From a virus: DNA of 24,671 nucleotides. Below the pieces are notes generated by a model. That model made no database searches, had not been told where the DNA came from, and saw nothing but the letters and a program-made list of their open reading frames with translations. Position numbers and translations under genes: made by a program. Position 1 is the first letter of the stretch. Every line of letters begins with the position of its first letter. Location: positions 1 to 24,671 of the IMG/VR virus record IMGVR_UViG_3300025759_000662, one strand, 5' to 3'. Shown one piece after another: positions 2,406 to 11,178 of this stretch.

Positions 2406-2609
2406 TCAACTATTTGCATTTATTTTTTCAAGTACAACTTTGATCCTTGAGGTTGCCGCCTGCTTCGAAATAGGTAAATCTTTCAACCTAACCCCATTGA
2501 CAAAGTAATCGATCATGGCACGTTTGTTGCTTTCAATCATCCTGGTTTTACTTAGAGCCAGTTCGATTGTCTCGATTGAATACGATCCACAGTGTTCAAG
2601 GTTACTCAT
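2406..2609 (-). CDS. Small helix-turn-helix protein, TrfB/KorA-like
   Basis: A 67-residue protein, last gene of the nucleotide-metabolism operon. Residues about 13-66 follow the layout of TrfB/KorA-type repressors: an N-terminal helix (SIETIELALSKTRM), a second helix (ESNKRAMIDYFVNG), then a helix-turn-helix (LKDLPISKQAATSRIKVVLEKI) in which SKQAATSRIKVVLEK would be the recognition helix. KorA-type proteins repress promoters by binding palindromes. ATG at 2609 overlaps the dCMP deaminase stop by one base (TGATG), with AGGAG about 8 bases upstream. It sits beside the palindrome-flanked promoter at 2353-2400. The family link is by pattern only, so moderate. Confidence 0.6.
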   Translation of the reverse strand: MSNLEHCGSYSIETIELALSKTRMIESNKRAMIDYFVNGVRLKDLPISKQAATSRIKVVLEKINANS

Positions 2610-3019
2610 CAAATATCTCCTATATCACAAAACTCAACAGCTATATTGAAACTTTCCAAAAGGGCAATGGGTTCCATATCCCTGTACCTTTCTCCGTAAA
2701 ACACCCTTTTGATCCCTGCCATAACAAGCATCTTAGCACAAGCCATACACGGACTTAGAGTTACGTAGACATCGCAATCTTTTGTTGCAACGCCGTTTTT
2801 TACACAGAACATAAGCGCGTTTTGTTCTGCATGCATAACTTCATCGATAGTTTGACCGTTGGATTCACAACAGTTATCCCTACCAGGCAATGTGCCGTTG
2901 TAACCGGTGCTAAGGATTCTACCTTCCTTTGCAATCACACAGCCAACCTTATTTCTTTCTGCATAAGATGCCTCGGCCCATAATCTGGCAGTCGCCATTA
3001 GCAATAGGGTCTTATCCAT
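2609..3019 (-). CDS. dCMP deaminase (ComEB-type)
   Basis: A 136-residue protein with the zinc-dependent cytidine/deoxycytidylate deaminase signatures: HAE (His63, Glu65 as proton shuttle) and PCMAC (Cys91, Cys94). A second Cys/His-rich stretch (RDNCCESNG, residues 47-55) is typical of phage dCMP deaminases with an extra zinc. It converts dCMP to dUMP. It overlaps the MazG-like gene by 8 bases and the HTH gene by 1, so all are co-translated. In T-even phages dCMP deaminase works beside a dCTPase and a dCMP hydroxymethylase to balance pyrimidine pools; the same set appears here. Confidence 0.9.
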   Translation of the reverse strand: MDKTLLLMATARLWAEASYAERNKVGCVIAKEGRILSTGYNGTLPGRDNCCESNGQTIDEVMHAEQNALMFCVKNGVATKDCDVYVTLSPCMACAKMLVMAGIKRVFYGERYRDMEPIALLESFNIAVEFCDIGDI

Positions 3020-3392
3020 AAATAATCGTCTCTATTTTTTTCTCTGGTGCGACCCAGTCGTCTGGCTTGGTTGCATCCGTTACACCGTCAAACCCTTCCC
3101 GGCCTTTTTTAATCCCCGGCTTCTTACTCATATTCGCTTCGTGGATTACATTGAATATTCGACGGATTTGAGAAACTTCAAGACCGGATCGGTACAAGCC
3201 TCCAATAGCAAAATAACATAAATCTATCAAAGCATCAGCGTCGTCTACCAGAGAAGTGGATTCTTCAAATTCTTGAATTTCTTCCTTTAAGGCCGCAATC
3301 AACCATGCTCGTTTATCGGCATCCAGTCGTTGTGGAGAACTAATATCCAGCCCTATGACTTCACGGTTAAATGTCCCAATTTCTTTAATCAT
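3012..3392 (-). CDS. MazG-like all-alpha NTP pyrophosphohydrolase
   Basis: A 126-residue, mostly helical protein with the metal-binding acidic pattern of the MazG/dUTPase-2 superfamily: EE..E at residues 37-41 (KEEIQEFEE) and a second helix with DDADALID (50-57). A C-terminal KPDDW..PE segment is frequent in phage members. Such enzymes release pyrophosphate from nucleoside triphosphates; T4 dCTPase/dUTPase is an analogous activity. Substrate cannot be read from sequence, but between a dCMP-type TS homologue and a dCMP deaminase a dCTP or dUTP substrate is likely. ATG at 3392 has AAGGA upstream and overlaps the amidotransferase stop by 8 bases; a start at 3446 would overlap far more. Confidence 0.78.
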   Translation of the reverse strand: MIKEIGTFNREVIGLDISSPQRLDADKRAWLIAALKEEIQEFEESTSLVDDADALIDLCYFAIGGLYRSGLEVSQIRRIFNVIHEANMSKKPGIKKGREGFDGVTDATKPDDWVAPEKKIETIIYG

Positions 3393-4704
3393 TTCTATAT
3401 TCCTTAAAAAGTTTAATGTTCGACTGAGTATTAGATAACAGATCATTCCGAATAGCTTTGGTTTTCAACGGAACTTTGGGTCTATCAATAATCTCTTTGG
3501 GTAACATGTGGCGATAAGCGTCTTTGAGATGCTTCTTATCTATCCGTTCGGCGTAAGGTAGTTCCATGGCGTACTTAACAATATATGGAGCCAAGAAGGG
3601 TGACCTAACCTCAATCGTGTGTCGCATCATTGTTCGGTCCAATCTTGGCAGATGATAATAAGGTAGTTCCTGGAAGACGTCAGACATCTGACTGTCATAT
3701 TCTTTGGCCCTTCTATAACCTCCAAAAAGCTCGTCTGCGCCATCCCCGGTCAGCACCATGTGATAACCTTCTTTGGCGATGGACTTAGCTAAGGCGAGCT
3801 GTGGTTTGACCGAGCCAAGGTCTACAGGTGATTGATGAACAGTAACCGCCTCGCTATCAGTTACCTCATCCAATGTGATATTGGTTCGGTTTGTTGTCAT
3901 CATATCGGCGTAATCGCTTTCATCATTGTCCACATGGAAGACTTTGATCTGATCCCCGTATCCCAACTCTTGAGTGACGGCATAAATGATGGAACTGTCC
4001 AAACCCCCCGATAATAGCAAAGATTGGGGTCGTGCTACGTGCATTCTTTTAGAGGTTGCTTGGGATATACCTGTGGAAATTACGTACGGCGCACTTATTT
4101 TAGACCAATCCCAGTAGCTAGATATGACCCCGTCGATATAAACTGAGCCAGCTGGCATTTGCTTGATATTTTTATAAGGAGTATTACCTGTTGGGTCGTA
4201 TCCCCACTTTTGGATGTTGCTAAAGAAGATAGGGTCGTATTCAGATGGAGCAAGACCCACTAAACAGTCAATCTCCGAGGCTACTACATTTAAGTCTGTA
4301 CGATAATAGAGTGGCTTCTGAGACAAGTAGTCAGTAATGGCAATCAGTTTTTTCTCACGTATAAAAGCCACATTCCAAAAGCCGTCGAACTTATGGAACA
4401 GTTCCAAGATCTTATCCAATGGATTATCGACGATCAAATTCCTGATCATCCTTACGTCGCCTGTCGAAGTGGGATCTAGTTCATGATAGTTAAAAATCTC
4501 ACCTGTGAAAGCTACGAAATTTAATGGTTGATGATATTCATACGGATCAAGAGAACACATTGGTAATGAAACATGACCGACGTGATAATGGCCATTAGTT
4601 TCAAAACATGGTTCAACCGTTCCCCGGTATTGCATTTTATATAGAGCTAATTCGATAGCCCCCGAACTAACCCTTTTATCGTTTGAAGCAATTAGACCAC
4701 ACAT
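3385..4704 (-). CDS. Asparagine synthetase B-like glutamine amidotransferase
   Basis: A 439-residue two-domain protein. Residues 1-200 form a class II glutaminase: catalytic Cys2 (MCGL), YRG at 26-28, FTGEIFNY at 66-73 (NGEIYN in most AsnB) and DYLSQKPLYY at 125-134. Residues about 220-439 form an ATP-dependent synthetase: PP-loop SGGLDSS (232-238), TGDGADELFGGYRR (319-332), RLDRTMMRHTIEVRSPFL and a late RPK. The family adenylates a carboxylate and transfers ammonia from glutamine. It is shorter than E. coli AsnB (about 554 residues) but no key motif is lost. It overlaps the dNMP kinase by 13 bases and the MazG gene by 8. The substrate may be aspartate or, given the neighbours, a modified nucleotide; that is open. 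Confidence 0.85.
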   Translation of the reverse strand: MCGLIASNDKRVSSGAIELALYKMQYRGTVEPCFETNGHYHVGHVSLPMCSLDPYEYHQPLNFVAFTGEIFNYHELDPTSTGDVRMIRNLIVDNPLDKILELFHKFDGFWNVAFIREKKLIAITDYLSQKPLYYRTDLNVVASEIDCLVGLAPSEYDPIFFSNIQKWGYDPTGNTPYKNIKQMPAGSVYIDGVISSYWDWSKISAPYVISTGISQATSKRMHVARPQSLLLSGGLDSSIIYAVTQELGYGDQIKVFHVDNDESDYADMMTTNRTNITLDEVTDSEAVTVHQSPVDLGSVKPQLALAKSIAKEGYHMVLTGDGADELFGGYRRAKEYDSQMSDVFQELPYYHLPRLDRTMMRHTIEVRSPFLAPYIVKYAMELPYAERIDKKHLKDAYRHMLPKEIIDRPKVPLKTKAIRNDLLSNTQSNIKLFKEYRND

Positions 4705-5216
4705 GTAATACCCCGGATGTAATCTAACAACTCTCTGTAAGCGCCTTTATGTTTCCAGTTGTACCGGATATATCCAGTGAACTTCACGGAGTTTGAGCCC
4801 ATGAACCCCTCATACATGTTAATGATTTTAGTATGGTTACGCATCACGGCATCGAGATGATCTTTTGATTTGTGGGCTTTAAATCCAACGTCAACATCCA
4901 TTTTGTTGATACCCGTGGGAGCACAATAAACTACGATCTGCGGTAAGTCCAAATAGTGATTGAACTTATTTAGATTAAGGCGGACCGGTCGATCTAAAGC
5001 CCTAGAGTAAATTAGTTCGGAAATCCACGTGACACGGTCGTGAATATGAAGCTCCTTTCTTTCTGCATGATATTCTTGTTCCTCGGTAACGAAGTCAAAA
5101 ACCTCCTGACTCGGTAACATCGGCGATCGATGCAAAGTTGCTCCAAGATCTTTTTCTAACTGCAAGCTCAATGTGCTTTTGCCTGACCCATCTGGTCCTT
5201 CTAGAACGATGATCAT
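4692..5216 (-). CDS. Deoxynucleoside monophosphate (thymidylate-like) kinase
   Basis: A 174-residue P-loop kinase with Walker A GPDGSGKST at residues 7-15 and a DR motif (HDRVTWISELIYSRAL, about residues 60-75) placed as in thymidylate kinases. The C-terminal part is less typical. It should phosphorylate a deoxynucleoside monophosphate for phage DNA synthesis; by context this could be the modified dCMP made by the upstream enzyme, as T4 gp1 does for hydroxymethyl-dCMP. The start overlaps the upstream stop as TAATG, with a very strong GGAGG 6 bases before it. The kinase assignment is solid; the exact substrate is inferred. Confidence 0.8.
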   Translation of the reverse strand: MIIVLEGPDGSGKSTLSLQLEKDLGATLHRSPMLPSQEVFDFVTEEQEYHAERKELHIHDRVTWISELIYSRALDRPVRLNLNKFNHYLDLPQIVVYCAPTGINKMDVDVGFKAHKSKDHLDAVMRNHTKIINMYEGFMGSNSVKFTGYIRYNWKHKGAYRELLDYIRGITCVV

Positions 5217-5956
5217 TAGTTTCCTCCAGTTAACTTTTTAAGGGTATATTTGTCATTTTCAAAACAGTGGAACGAGGTACAAGAAAAATTCAATGTGCCT
5301 GGGGTCGCATTTATCCCGGCTGCTTCAATTAAAAATAAAGTCATCCTGTTGGCAAAGAAGATGTCATTGTGGAAGTGCCGGATTGCATCGCACGATCGCA
5401 TAGGATAAAAGCAATGCATCTTTTCATTTCTAACTATGAACTGCCAACCTAGTGTACAAGGAACTCTCTCGCCTTCTATAGCAGCATTGAGATCCTCTGG
5501 AAAAAAGATAGGGATATAACACTGTCTTGTCGTTGGGTCCTTTTTTAGAAGAGTAATAGCATCCGAAAGATCGGCAGTATTAAATCTGATCCCATTAGGC
5601 ATTAAGGTTTTAGGCCAAAGACGTTCGGGATAAGAATGCGAAAATTTGTTATCGGTAAGAAAGTCCTCATTACCTTTTAACCAAATTTTATGGCTAGGCG
5701 GGGGATTAACGGGTTCCCCGGCGATACGTTCTTGGAAGTGATCCTCGGCCCACGGTAAAAACGGATTAGTTTCTTTTTTTAAAGAATCGAGGCCATCAGT
5801 CATAGGCATCATTAGGTTTAAGTTCAATATCTCGAGAAACATGGGCGGACACTTGACCCCTTGCCAAGAGTTAGTTTCAACTACATTGCCGTATTTCAAA
5901 AGATGGAATCTAGCTTTATTAATGCCAGATCTTATATCGATGGCTCGAATCTGCAT
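5216..5956 (-). CDS. Thymidylate-synthase homologue with dCMP-type active site (probable dCMP (hydroxy)methylase)
   Basis: A 246-residue member of the thymidylate synthase fold. The C-terminal half carries the family signature: catalytic Cys167 (VPCTLGWQF), then MRSCDA with Arg187, Ser188 and Asp190 at C+20, C+21 and C+23, exactly as in E. coli TS (C146, R166, S167, D169). At C+31, where TS has Asn177 for dUMP selection, this protein has Asp198 (HFHNDIFF). T4 dCMP hydroxymethylase has Asp at the same offset (C148, D179). The His/Tyr site near the end reads FHCFEND, so Tyr is replaced by Phe. ATG at 5956 has AAGGA upstream; the open frame to 6007 runs over the promoter. Methyl versus hydroxymethyl product cannot be told. 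Confidence 0.8.
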   Translation of the reverse strand: MQIRAIDIRSGINKARFHLLKYGNVVETNSWQGVKCPPMFLEILNLNLMMPMTDGLDSLKKETNPFLPWAEDHFQERIAGEPVNPPPSHKIWLKGNEDFLTDNKFSHSYPERLWPKTLMPNGIRFNTADLSDAITLLKKDPTTRQCYIPIFFPEDLNAAIEGERVPCTLGWQFIVRNEKMHCFYPMRSCDAIRHFHNDIFFANRMTLFLIEAAGINATPGTLNFSCTSFHCFENDKYTLKKLTGGN

Positions 5957-6021: not shown

Positions 6022-7377
6022 TCATTTTAAGAGGGCCATTAGTAGATCCGTTTCTACTTTTTCTTTGTTCTTAAGAACATCAACAATCCTTTCATCAATA
6101 GTTTTTTGACCAACAATATGATGGATGGTAACCGAGTTCTTTACACCTTGCCGATGAACCCTACCGCATGCTTGCACATACAGTTCCCGATCGTAGGGAA
6201 GAGAATACCAAACTACGTCGTGGCAGTCGCTGCCCTGTAAATTAAGACCATGTGAACCACTTGCCACCTGGATTAACAGGATCGGGATAAGACTGTTATT
6301 CCAGTCGTTTACAAGACTATCAAGATCTTCTGCTTTATTGCCTAACACCCTTGCTGAAGGAAAGGCTTTCTTTAGCCTGGATAGATCATGGTTGTATTCA
6401 TAAAAAACCAATAATGGTCTGCCTGCTAAACTTTCAACAATCTCCTTGACTGCTTTGGTTTTTTCGTCATGGATGTCAAGTGTGTTACCATCCTCGTCGT
6501 AAATACCCCCGTTGGCTATTTGCTTTAATTTACCGGCAACCACGGCGGCATTGACAGCAGTAACCAACTTGTCGCCGAGTTGGATCATCATGTCTTTTTT
6601 CATTTTTTCATAAAAGACCCGGGCCTTGTCGCCTATGTCAACAGGAATGAAATTATCAATCCTTTCGGGTAGGTCTAACTCGTCACTAGATTTGTGCATA
6701 ATCAGATCGTTAATCTTTTCATAGATTTTATCTTCGGCCCAATCGTAAGGCGCATAGATATAGCCCATATAATCCGACTGATAAAAGTATCTGCTACGGT
6801 ATGCTGAAAAGCTTTTTCCCAATCTTTCCCCGTCATCTAACACAAATACTTGACTCCACAACTGAAGTAAGCCATTGGGCGCTGGCGTAGCGGTCAGAAT
6901 AACCTTCCGTTCGAAATTGTAGGTCATTCTTTTTAAAAGTTTGAATCTAGCGGATGATGAGTTTTTAAAATTGCTGGATTCGTCTACAATCAACATCCAG
7001 CGCTTACCTTTAAAGGTAAACTTTTTAGATCCAATCGTACGAGCTAAAAATTGAAGCCCGTCTGGGTTAATCACCACAATGTCAGAATTAGAATTCAGCG
7101 CCTTTTCACGATTTTTTCCGTGGGCAATGGAAATGGTTAACCCGTTAAAGTTCTCCCATTTCTCAATTTCCTTTGGCCATACTAGATAGCAGACTCTTAA
7201 TGGCGCAATAATCAAGACCCTATCGATTTTATTTTGGTGCTTTAATTTTTTAATAGCTGAAAGGGAGCAAGCCGTTTTGCCTAAGCCTACCGGTACAAAA
7301 AGACCGGCCTGTTCCTTATCAAGAATAAAATCAATTGCATCTTTTTGATAGTCATGGGGATTAAAGATTTTAGTCAT
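6022..7377 (-). CDS. SNF2/DEAD-like DNA helicase
   Basis: A 451-residue superfamily 2 ATPase. Motif I is GLGKT (residues 31-35), motif II DESS (132-135, preceded by hydrophobics), motif III TATP (162-165). The C-terminal RecA domain carries SGSHGLNLQG and motif VI QACGRVHRQG. This compact form is common in phage replication modules, where it probably remodels DNA-protein complexes or helps recombination. It overlaps the VRR-NUC gene by 8 bases, and the pairing of these two genes is recurrent in phages, suggesting a helicase-nuclease team. The promoter of the next operon begins immediately after its stop. Confidence 0.88.
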   Translation of the reverse strand: MTKIFNPHDYQKDAIDFILDKEQAGLFVPVGLGKTACSLSAIKKLKHQNKIDRVLIIAPLRVCYLVWPKEIEKWENFNGLTISIAHGKNREKALNSNSDIVVINPDGLQFLARTIGSKKFTFKGKRWMLIVDESSNFKNSSSARFKLLKRMTYNFERKVILTATPAPNGLLQLWSQVFVLDDGERLGKSFSAYRSRYFYQSDYMGYIYAPYDWAEDKIYEKINDLIMHKSSDELDLPERIDNFIPVDIGDKARVFYEKMKKDMMIQLGDKLVTAVNAAVVAGKLKQIANGGIYDEDGNTLDIHDEKTKAVKEIVESLAGRPLLVFYEYNHDLSRLKKAFPSARVLGNKAEDLDSLVNDWNNSLIPILLIQVASGSHGLNLQGSDCHDVVWYSLPYDRELYVQACGRVHRQGVKNSVTIHHIVGQKTIDERIVDVLKNKEKVETDLLMALLK

Positions 7378-10248: not shown

Positions 10249-11178
10249 TTATTTAATCTTTTTAAAAATAATTACAATTTGTTCCATAGGAGGTCGTACA
10301 TTGTACTTGTCCTCGTAAGTATTCATAGCCAATGAGCCAGGATAGTGGGGTAGAACCAAGGTTCCTTGTAATTCCATATTGTTATTTAAAAGATCGGCTA
10401 ACATCCTGTGAAGTTCCCAAACTTTTTTGCTTTTAATCATATCCTTAATAACAAAAACAGCATGGCCTCCTACTACCAACTTGTCACAAGATTTATCCTG
10501 GATTAACTTCATTAAATCCCAATAAGTCCTGGTTGACTTCATTTTTCCGGCATTTCCTTCCTTTTTATAAAAAGACTTTTTACCAATGGAACTAGTTTCG
10601 TCCCCCCCATCTGGATAAGGGTTAGAGAAATTTACAAGATGAACACTTTCATCTTGAATACTATCCAAATGAATCGAACTATCCCCTTCATACAATTGCC
10701 ACTTATCCCCTTCACCGTCAGGAGAGATTGACTTAAATGTCTCAAGAGTCAATTTATGGAATTCATATTCGATCCCAATCGTTTTACGATTATTGAACAT
10801 TGCTTCTGCCCCTGTTGTTCCCGATCCTGCAAAAGGATCAAGGACGGTATCCCCTTCTTTTGTTAAATTAAGGATAGCCCAACGTATAGCGTGTAAAGGG
10901 GTTTTAGCAATGTGACCGCCTTTTGAAGTCCCTGACGGAGGATAATACTTATTCCTAACATTCTTATTTGGTAAAGACCCGTCCTTATTTAAAATCGTTC
11001 CCTTAAAATTATCCTTGGACAGATACTTAGAATCGAGATCATAAGTTTCATGAAATCGAGGGGGATAATCAGGAGAAACAAGCAACTCTTGACCCATTTC
11101 GTTAATTTTGATATGTTTTACGGAACTTATTTTTTGGATTTTTTCCCAGTTTGTTTCATAATCTTTCTTAAAGCTCAT
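10249..11178 (-). CDS. AdoMet-dependent DNA methyltransferase with unusual motif IV
   Basis: A 309-residue protein with a clear class I AdoMet-binding motif, LDPFAGSGTTGAEA (residues 113-126), preceded by KTPLHAIRWAILNLTKEGDTV, the usual lead-in of N4/N6 amino-methyltransferases. The expected catalytic (D/N/S)PP(Y/F/W) motif appears as SNPYPD (185-190), where the first Pro is missing or shifted. The target base is therefore uncertain, and the enzyme could be altered in activity. It overlaps the DUF2800 gene by 11 bases. It may protect phage DNA from host restriction, or modify a noncanonical base given the TS-like operon nearby; only the methyltransferase fold is firm. Confidence 0.8.
   Translation of the reverse strand: MSFKKDYETNWEKIQKISSVKHIKINEMGQELLVSPDYPPRFHETYDLDSKYLSKDNFKGTILNKDGSLPNKNVRNKYYPPSGTSKGGHIAKTPLHAIRWAILNLTKEGDTVLDPFAGSGTTGAEAMFNNRKTIGIEYEFHKLTLETFKSISPDGEGDKWQLYEGDSSIHLDSIQDESVHLVNFSNPYPDGGDETSSIGKKSFYKKEGNAGKMKSTRTYWDLMKLIQDKSCDKLVVGGHAVFVIKDMIKSKKVWELHRMLADLLNNNMELQGTLVLPHYPGSLAMNTYEDKYNVRPPMEQIVIIFKKIK

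Follow-up and report, generated by a model that had tools for sequence, protein, structure and literature searches.

An Asp-type thymidylate-synthase homologue paired with an AsnB-like enzyme: a candidate cytosine-hypermodification cassette of uncultured phages

In the virus record analysed here (24,671 bases in full, hereafter the window), a thymidylate-synthase (TS) homologue stands in a block of overlapping minus-strand genes together with an AsnB-like amide ligase, and on balance we read the two as parts of an undescribed cytosine-hypermodification cassette, its substrate and product being inferred. The analysis was made on the sequence, on predicted structures and on relatives; a set of 50,697 phage records held no close match to the window. 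Several cytosine hypermodifications of known phages begin with an Asp-type TS homologue, and a partner enzyme sets the final base: T4 adds glucose, RB69-like phages add arabinose and the MetaGPA contigs carbamoyl. The retuned type of TS is itself known; judging from the sequences, it is the TS-AsnB pairing and the final chemistry that look new, and the AsnB-like neighbour is a more unusual part of the locus than the Asp switch.

A TS-fold protein with aspartate at the cytosine position

A preliminary description of this DNA had placed a TS homologue at 5216-5956, and these coordinates proved correct. The gene (5216..5956, minus strand; product P0001, 246 aa) is intact, starting at ATG 5956, which is preceded by AGGA, and stopping at TAA 5218-5216. 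Its product scored 32.6 bits against PF00303 (cut-off 24.3) and E 4.5e-29 against PHROG 160 ('thymidylate synthase'). Similar proteins were found in 126 phage records (E 1e-5; closest 41.6% identity), in many of which they are annotated as 'thymidylate synthase'. A structural search with the AlphaFold2 model (pLDDT 90.9, pTM 0.90) returned TS-superfamily structures in all 50 rows of the table (Z 19.3-21.4). AfhB, the dCMP hydroxylase of phage HY126, came first with 9iqc (Z 21.4, rmsd 2.6, 218 aligned) and 9iqu (Z 21.1, rmsd 2.4, 207 aligned), followed by M. tuberculosis ThyA, Brucella ThyA and the CMP hydroxymethylase MilA (5jnh, 5b6d) at Z 20.1 (for MilA, rmsd 2.5, 222 aligned), gaps of about 1 in Z being near-ties. 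With the TS fold, the PF00303 match, the catalytic Cys and the phosphate Arg and Ser all present, P0001 belongs to the TS superfamily.

We counted offsets from the catalytic Cys167 (codon 5456..5458, minus strand; Cys in 135/135 rows of the alignment described below) on the real sequences. As had been claimed, Arg, Ser and Asp stand at +20, +21 and +23, exactly as they do from C146 of E. coli ThyA and from C148 of T4 gp42. At +31, the counts and the alignments likewise confirmed Asp198 (codon 5363..5365, minus strand) at the place of E. coli Asn177, with T4 gp42 having Asp (Asp179) at the same offset. By this residue P0001 is not a canonical ThyA, which has Asn at 177, and falls with the Asp-type (dCMP) TS homologues. 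Asp occupies site 198 in all 65 IMG/VR relatives that cover it (two further relatives, L067 and L068, end before the site and stand outside the 65), and again in 135/135 rows of a second alignment, composed of 72 sequences reached via the AsnB-like gene and 63 via TS, the window among the latter; this alignment includes near-copies, and one contig enters it twice, as L005 and L083. Given its presence in every one of the 65 relatives, Asp198 is a fixed, family-wide character, due neither to a switch in one protein nor to chance.

In the MetaGPA study (PMC8670742), position 177, together with 147, best splits the TS homologues of modified contigs from those of unmodified ones, Asp is usual at 177 in the former, and mutagenesis papers are cited in which N-to-D alone makes TS a dCMP methylase. 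At the equivalent of 147, all 135/135 rows of our family have Thr or Ser. Because that work links TS homologues with Asp177 to phage DNA modified at cytosine (PMC8670742), dCMP is probably the substrate of P0001; the dCMP preference put forward from the Asn-to-Asp change has both mutagenesis and metagenome association in its favour, and this cytosine switch is already known, not new. The choice between deoxy- and CMP-type substrates follows a residue rule set out in PMC5175136, which we applied to the Ser188 and Arg144 sites. Ser188 is found in 127/135 rows and Arg144 in 135/135, residues that would fit dCMP over CMP, whereas MilA, which shares the cytosine Asp, has Ala and Lys for the ribose (PMC5175136).

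The protein has also lost the C-terminal tail of TS: 79 residues follow the catalytic Cys, where E. coli ThyA has 118, and at most 14-34 residues remain after His230 in nearly all TS-family rows (8 in the shortest). A ThyX-like gene lies near 34 of the 80 AsnB-linked loci described below (motif visible in 33; the single member that was scanned matches Pfam Thy1 at E 3.5e-43), so that dTMP need not derive from the TS homologue there. On Asp198, the lost tail and the nearby ThyX we rejected an ordinary TS as very unlikely.

The gene block and its AsnB-like member

Just upstream of TS lies a helicase-like gene (6022..7377, minus strand; a cluster of 44 loci) that is kept in many relatives, phage Muddy having gp50, 'DNA helicase', at the same place. 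From TS downstream the order is TS, kinase-like, AsnB-like, MazG/PRA-PH-like and dCMP deaminase, all on the minus strand, each downstream ORF overlapping its neighbour by 1 to 13 bases. The gene for a dNMP-kinase-like P-loop protein of 174 aa (4692..5216; PHROG 761 thymidylate kinase E 9e-13, Pfam below cut-off) runs into the TS gene by 1 base, and is overlapped by 13 bases by the gene for a 439-aa AsnB-like class II amidotransferase or amide ligase (3385..4704; PF00733 E 3.1e-33, PF13537; E 9.6e-11 against AsnB, PDB 1ct9). A MazG/PRA-PH-like nucleotide pyrophosphohydrolase follows (3012..3392; PF01503 E 1.9e-7, PHROG 671), with ATG 3392 chosen as its start in an ORF open up to ATG 3446, and then a dCMP deaminase of 136 aa (2609..3019; PF00383 E 2e-23, PHROG 174 E 7.6e-48). 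In the MetaGPA study the domains co-occurring with TS are PF01503, PF00383, PF14437 and a carbamoyltransferase (PMC8670742). The window operon has the first three and is like those contigs in Asp at 177 and in a changed 147; it may differ from them in Arg164 and His107 (see below) and does differ in the AsnB-like gene, which would occupy, in the role of the carbamoyltransferase, the place expected for the hypermodifying enzyme.

Away from the block, the window carries an N6/N4 DNA methyltransferase-like gene (10249-11178, minus strand; PF01555) whose motif IV is likely SNPYP, the usual form being D/S-PP-Y; a related group near 17/80 AsnB-type loci has GTPYP.

We compared 88 AsnB-like sequences, the window and one duplicate contig included, with E. 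coli AsnB residue by residue. The AsnB hallmarks are there: catalytic Cys1 in 87/88 (one gap), K449 in 86/88 (two gaps), and G75, E76, D98 and the SGG-DS loop (PP-loop) in all 88; D351 is common to both as well. The acceptor pocket is another matter, for Glu348 (human 364) is replaced by Asp in 88/88; human Glu-364 is modelled beside the aspartyl intermediate, and Ala or Gln there leaves the enzyme inactive (PMC6748925). Further, R49 is kept in 6/88 and N74 in 3/88, so the glutamine pocket is altered and the nitrogen donor, or even glutaminase activity, is uncertain, and the family is about 115 residues shorter than E. coli AsnB. The natural reading of these residues is an enzyme whose acceptor, and perhaps also its nitrogen donor, is not that of AsnB, one that probably acts in the same pathway as the TS homologue. 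Its relatives in cellular genomes have 23-30% identity among the matches listed (80 kept of 518), and in phage records we found only one Streptomyces phage (two records; 34% covered, E 1e-5).

CmoY is a precedent for an AMP-forming, AsnB-like ligase at work in phage DNA modification; a second CmoY cluster has an amidase domain too, although soluble protein was not obtained (PMC12783734). The window block differs from the CmoA-CmoX-CmoY pathway in that its handle would come from the TS homologue. No CmoA over the cut-off was found in 22 records or in the 43 of the 80 AsnB-type records that were searched; a match of 15.8 bits in the L005 record fell below the cut-off and was set aside. CmoX was likewise found neither in the window record nor in those 43, all of them fragments, and the CmoA-CmoX-CmoY pathway was rejected. 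The window record and the same 43 fragmentary records held no C5-methyltransferase, and the TS-AsnB block is, by the absence of this enzyme and of CmoA, distinct from that pathway. Transferases were considered as partners as well: carbamoyltransferase PF02543 was found in 0/50 TS-family records and 0/9 further ones, and PF00535, the glycosyltransferase family searched, in 0/10 records.

A C5-cytosine-methyltransferase-like gene stands beside TS in six relatives. One of these, L024, bears the AsnB-like gene, and in the other five loci (L027, at 3405-4406, L030, L034, L036 and L038) no AsnB-like gene was seen; the catalytic motif in L027 is SPDC, where SPPC is usual. Near the cassette we also observed genes like UDP-glucose dehydrogenase in 24/80 AsnB-type loci (e.g. 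L133:20164-21006), cytidylyltransferase in 19/80 (e.g. L111:8560-9000) and PMM in 13/80 (e.g. L103:5902-6609), one member of each group having been scanned. With such genes nearby, an attached uronic acid could give a carboxylate there, and some of the phages may thus include a step with a sugar.

Linkage of the two genes across relatives

Among 68 loci found through TS, the window included, the AsnB-like gene is present in 9, in 6 of which it is the next ORF after TS, and absent from 59. An IMG/VR search with the AsnB-like alignment alone gave 315 confirmed relatives, the best 80 of which were kept; they were chosen by nearness to the window's AsnB-like protein, and near-copies are present. 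A TS of the same family lies upstream in 72 of these 80 (best 80 of 315), on the same strand in 72/72, with the AsnB-like gene as next ORF in 60/72 and the two <=60 bases apart in 59/72. In the remaining 8/80 the AsnB-like gene starts within 168 bases of the contig start. The deaminase was found by profile in 76/80 and by tblastn in two more, the last two contigs ending there.

We also built a TS tree of 112 rows by a quick method, with long branches flagged and rows picked by likeness to the window's AsnB-like protein. Its 63 AsnB-linked rows need 3 label changes against a shuffled mean of 36.6, a value as low as 3 being reached in 0/500 shuffles, and 59 of the 63, among them the window, fall into a single group (support 100). 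Many of the AsnB-type contigs look T4-like in sequence. The window and two other contigs, G022 and G032, are built differently, so that the block occurs in unlike genomes: G022 (35,950 bases, holding L069) has the order and sequence of most window genes in common with the window, and G032 (42,082 bases, holding L087) has the same TS-kinase-AsnB-MazG-deaminase block. Among the ORFs of at least 90 aa in these two contigs, which are perhaps incomplete, no other hypermodification candidate was seen, mostly judging by eye, and PF00535 and PF02543 were searched in both and not found. A report of the TS-AsnB pairing was not found in the literature searched, which lay mostly outside subscription papers and preprints.

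Two other families were observed around TS in relatives. An unannotated family, c4, occurs in 46/68 TS-found loci, mostly beside TS; none of the 80 AsnB-type loci has it, and in no locus was it seen together with the AsnB-like gene (examples are L026:7162-7983, L013:6873-7811 and Muddy gp47 at L317:5033-5926; PHROG 13667 for one member). Its profile matches Muddy gp47 and KimJongPhill gp77 strongly and Serbin gp51 weakly (E 1.3e-7). Cys120, Arg142 and Asp153 are invariant in 35 members, the last two standing 11 apart, as in TS. An initial profile comparison gave no significant match between c4 and the TS family. The fold was settled by a structural search with the c4 model (pLDDT 93.2), whose matches are structures of the TS fold headed by AfhB (Z 14.9, rmsd 3.6, 188 aligned); c4 is thus predicted to be a divergent TS-fold protein, perhaps an additional enzyme or else the subunit of a partner. 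The other family (L019:9169-11682; 52/68 loci) is a PolA-type polymerase found after TS and deaminase, which seems, in the sequence read by eye, to start with a uracil-DNA-glycosylase-like domain.

The reaction at C5 and the proposed pathway

A signature for hydroxymethylation has been proposed from the T4 ternary complex, with Asp or Glu at Cys-3 and Ser or Thr at Tyr-2, and the T4 D145N mutant formed no product (PMC6400193). D145 and S94 are each kept in 80/80 T4-type relatives (best 80 of 170). At the T4 Asp145 place, in a profile alignment with the T4 gp42 family, P0001 has Arg164 (Cys-3; codon 5465..5467, minus strand), an Arg shared by 135/135 rows, and at the Ser94 place in the profile alignment it has His107 (two before Tyr109; codon 5636..5638, minus strand), shared by 133/135, the remaining two being gapped. 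Elsewhere, the Cys-3 residue is Asp in MilA, Glu in AfhB and Leu in E. coli. With the dCMP marker present and the hydroxymethyl marker absent, the P0001 sequence does not indicate 5-hydroxymethyl, because the published signature is replaced by Arg164 and His107. Of the product foreseen in the preliminary description, the prediction of a 5-modified dCMP is supported; hydroxymethyl as the indicated group is not. On the general acid (Glu58/Glu60) two alignments disagree: one sets Phe66 at its place, and the other, read by eye, suggests Glu71, which is replaced by Asp or Asn in 65/72 AsnB-linked rows.

A T4-like dCMP hydroxymethylase is still a serious contender, though one that we would not expect to prevail. 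In this case water would be placed by non-T4 residues, 5-hydroxymethyl-dCMP would be formed, and the AsnB-like enzyme would then act on the hydroxymethyl group or on an attachment to it. P0001 has in common with T4 gp42 the fold, the Cys, Asp179, Ser169, Arg123, Asp171, Tyr96 and the want of a long C-terminal tail, so that Asp198, Ser188, Thr168 and the short C-terminus all match, and its neighbour domains are those of the contigs whose carbamoyltransferase acts on 5hmC (PMC8670742). Against this, Asp145 becomes Arg, Ser94 His, Arg124 Gln145 and Tyr218 Phe232 in the P0001 family, with Arg and His as constant at Cys-3 and Tyr-2 as Asp and Ser are in the T4 type, and the acidic Cys-3 residues of MilA and AfhB are unlike Arg164 as well.

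It is quite unlikely that the enzyme is a dCMP methylase making 5-methyl-dCMP. The Asn-to-Asp mutants of TS do so (papers cited in PMC8670742), and 134/135 rows retain Asp190, the counterpart of the Asp169 that orients the pterin; but the family lacks the C-terminal tail with which TS closes its site for hydride transfer, and a methyl group offers the AsnB-like enzyme nothing to act on.

It is very doubtful that the enzyme is a dCMP 5-hydroxylase dependent on flavin, as AfhB from RB69-like phages would be. AfhB has the cytosine Asp, a short C-terminus and, in its PDB title, FAD, and it is first both by fold and by profile (47.9 bits); its lead over MilA and ThyA, however, is a narrow one of about 1 Z unit and 1 bit, and besides the Glu at Cys-3 it has Asn where P0001 retains Asp190, which favours folate over flavin. 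Ordinary metabolism, with TS making dTMP from dUMP and AsnB making asparagine for the host cell, is highly improbable: the 'thymidylate synthase' annotation is common and metabolic genes are known in phages, but Asp198 is invariant, ThyX lies near many of the loci, the TS-AsnB-deaminase order is fixed, and the AsnB Glu348 place, at which the human enzyme is inactive with Ala or Gln (PMC6748925), is Asp throughout.

If the block is a hypermodification cassette, as we prefer, the TS homologue would put a folate-derived one-carbon group on C5 of dCMP by covalent catalysis through Cys167. The kinase-like protein would then move the modified dCMP towards the triphosphate, the MazG-like hydrolase and the deaminase would clear unmodified dCTP and dCMP, and a polymerase would build DNA with the modified cytosine; T4 gp1, gp56 and Cd provide the analogy for the kinase, hydrolase and deaminase steps. 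The AsnB-like enzyme, with ATP, would activate an oxygen on the new C5 group or on something attached there, and this oxygen would give way to an amide or amine, at the nucleotide or the DNA level, yielding a hypermodified cytosine; gene linkage and the altered pockets suggest this last step. Against the cassette reading weigh the missing hydroxymethylase signature, the disagreement over the general acid, the altered glutamine pocket of AsnB and the 59/68 TS-found loci that lack the AsnB-like gene. In one specific version, which we consider unlikely, an exocyclic methylene on dCMP would be trapped by a carboxylated nucleophile such as glycine, held by Arg164 and His107, and the AsnB-like partner would amidate the carboxylate; the cmnm5U that MnmE-MnmG makes in tRNA is a parallel for glycine capture. 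Against this version, Arg164 is just as invariant in the relatives that showed no AsnB-like gene, and its role must therefore lie in a step that all of them share.

The cassette is small enough to be expressed whole, and the cultured phages Muddy, Serbin and KimJongPhill have the same TS signature, so that part of the question is open to test in them. The fixed gene order that joins the TS homologue to an AsnB-like enzyme, together with Arg and His for Asp and Ser, points to an undescribed base. If true, the glycine-capture reading would be a new route of cytosine hypermodification, built on folate and not on carboxy-SAM, and uncultured phages of unlike lineages would carry it.
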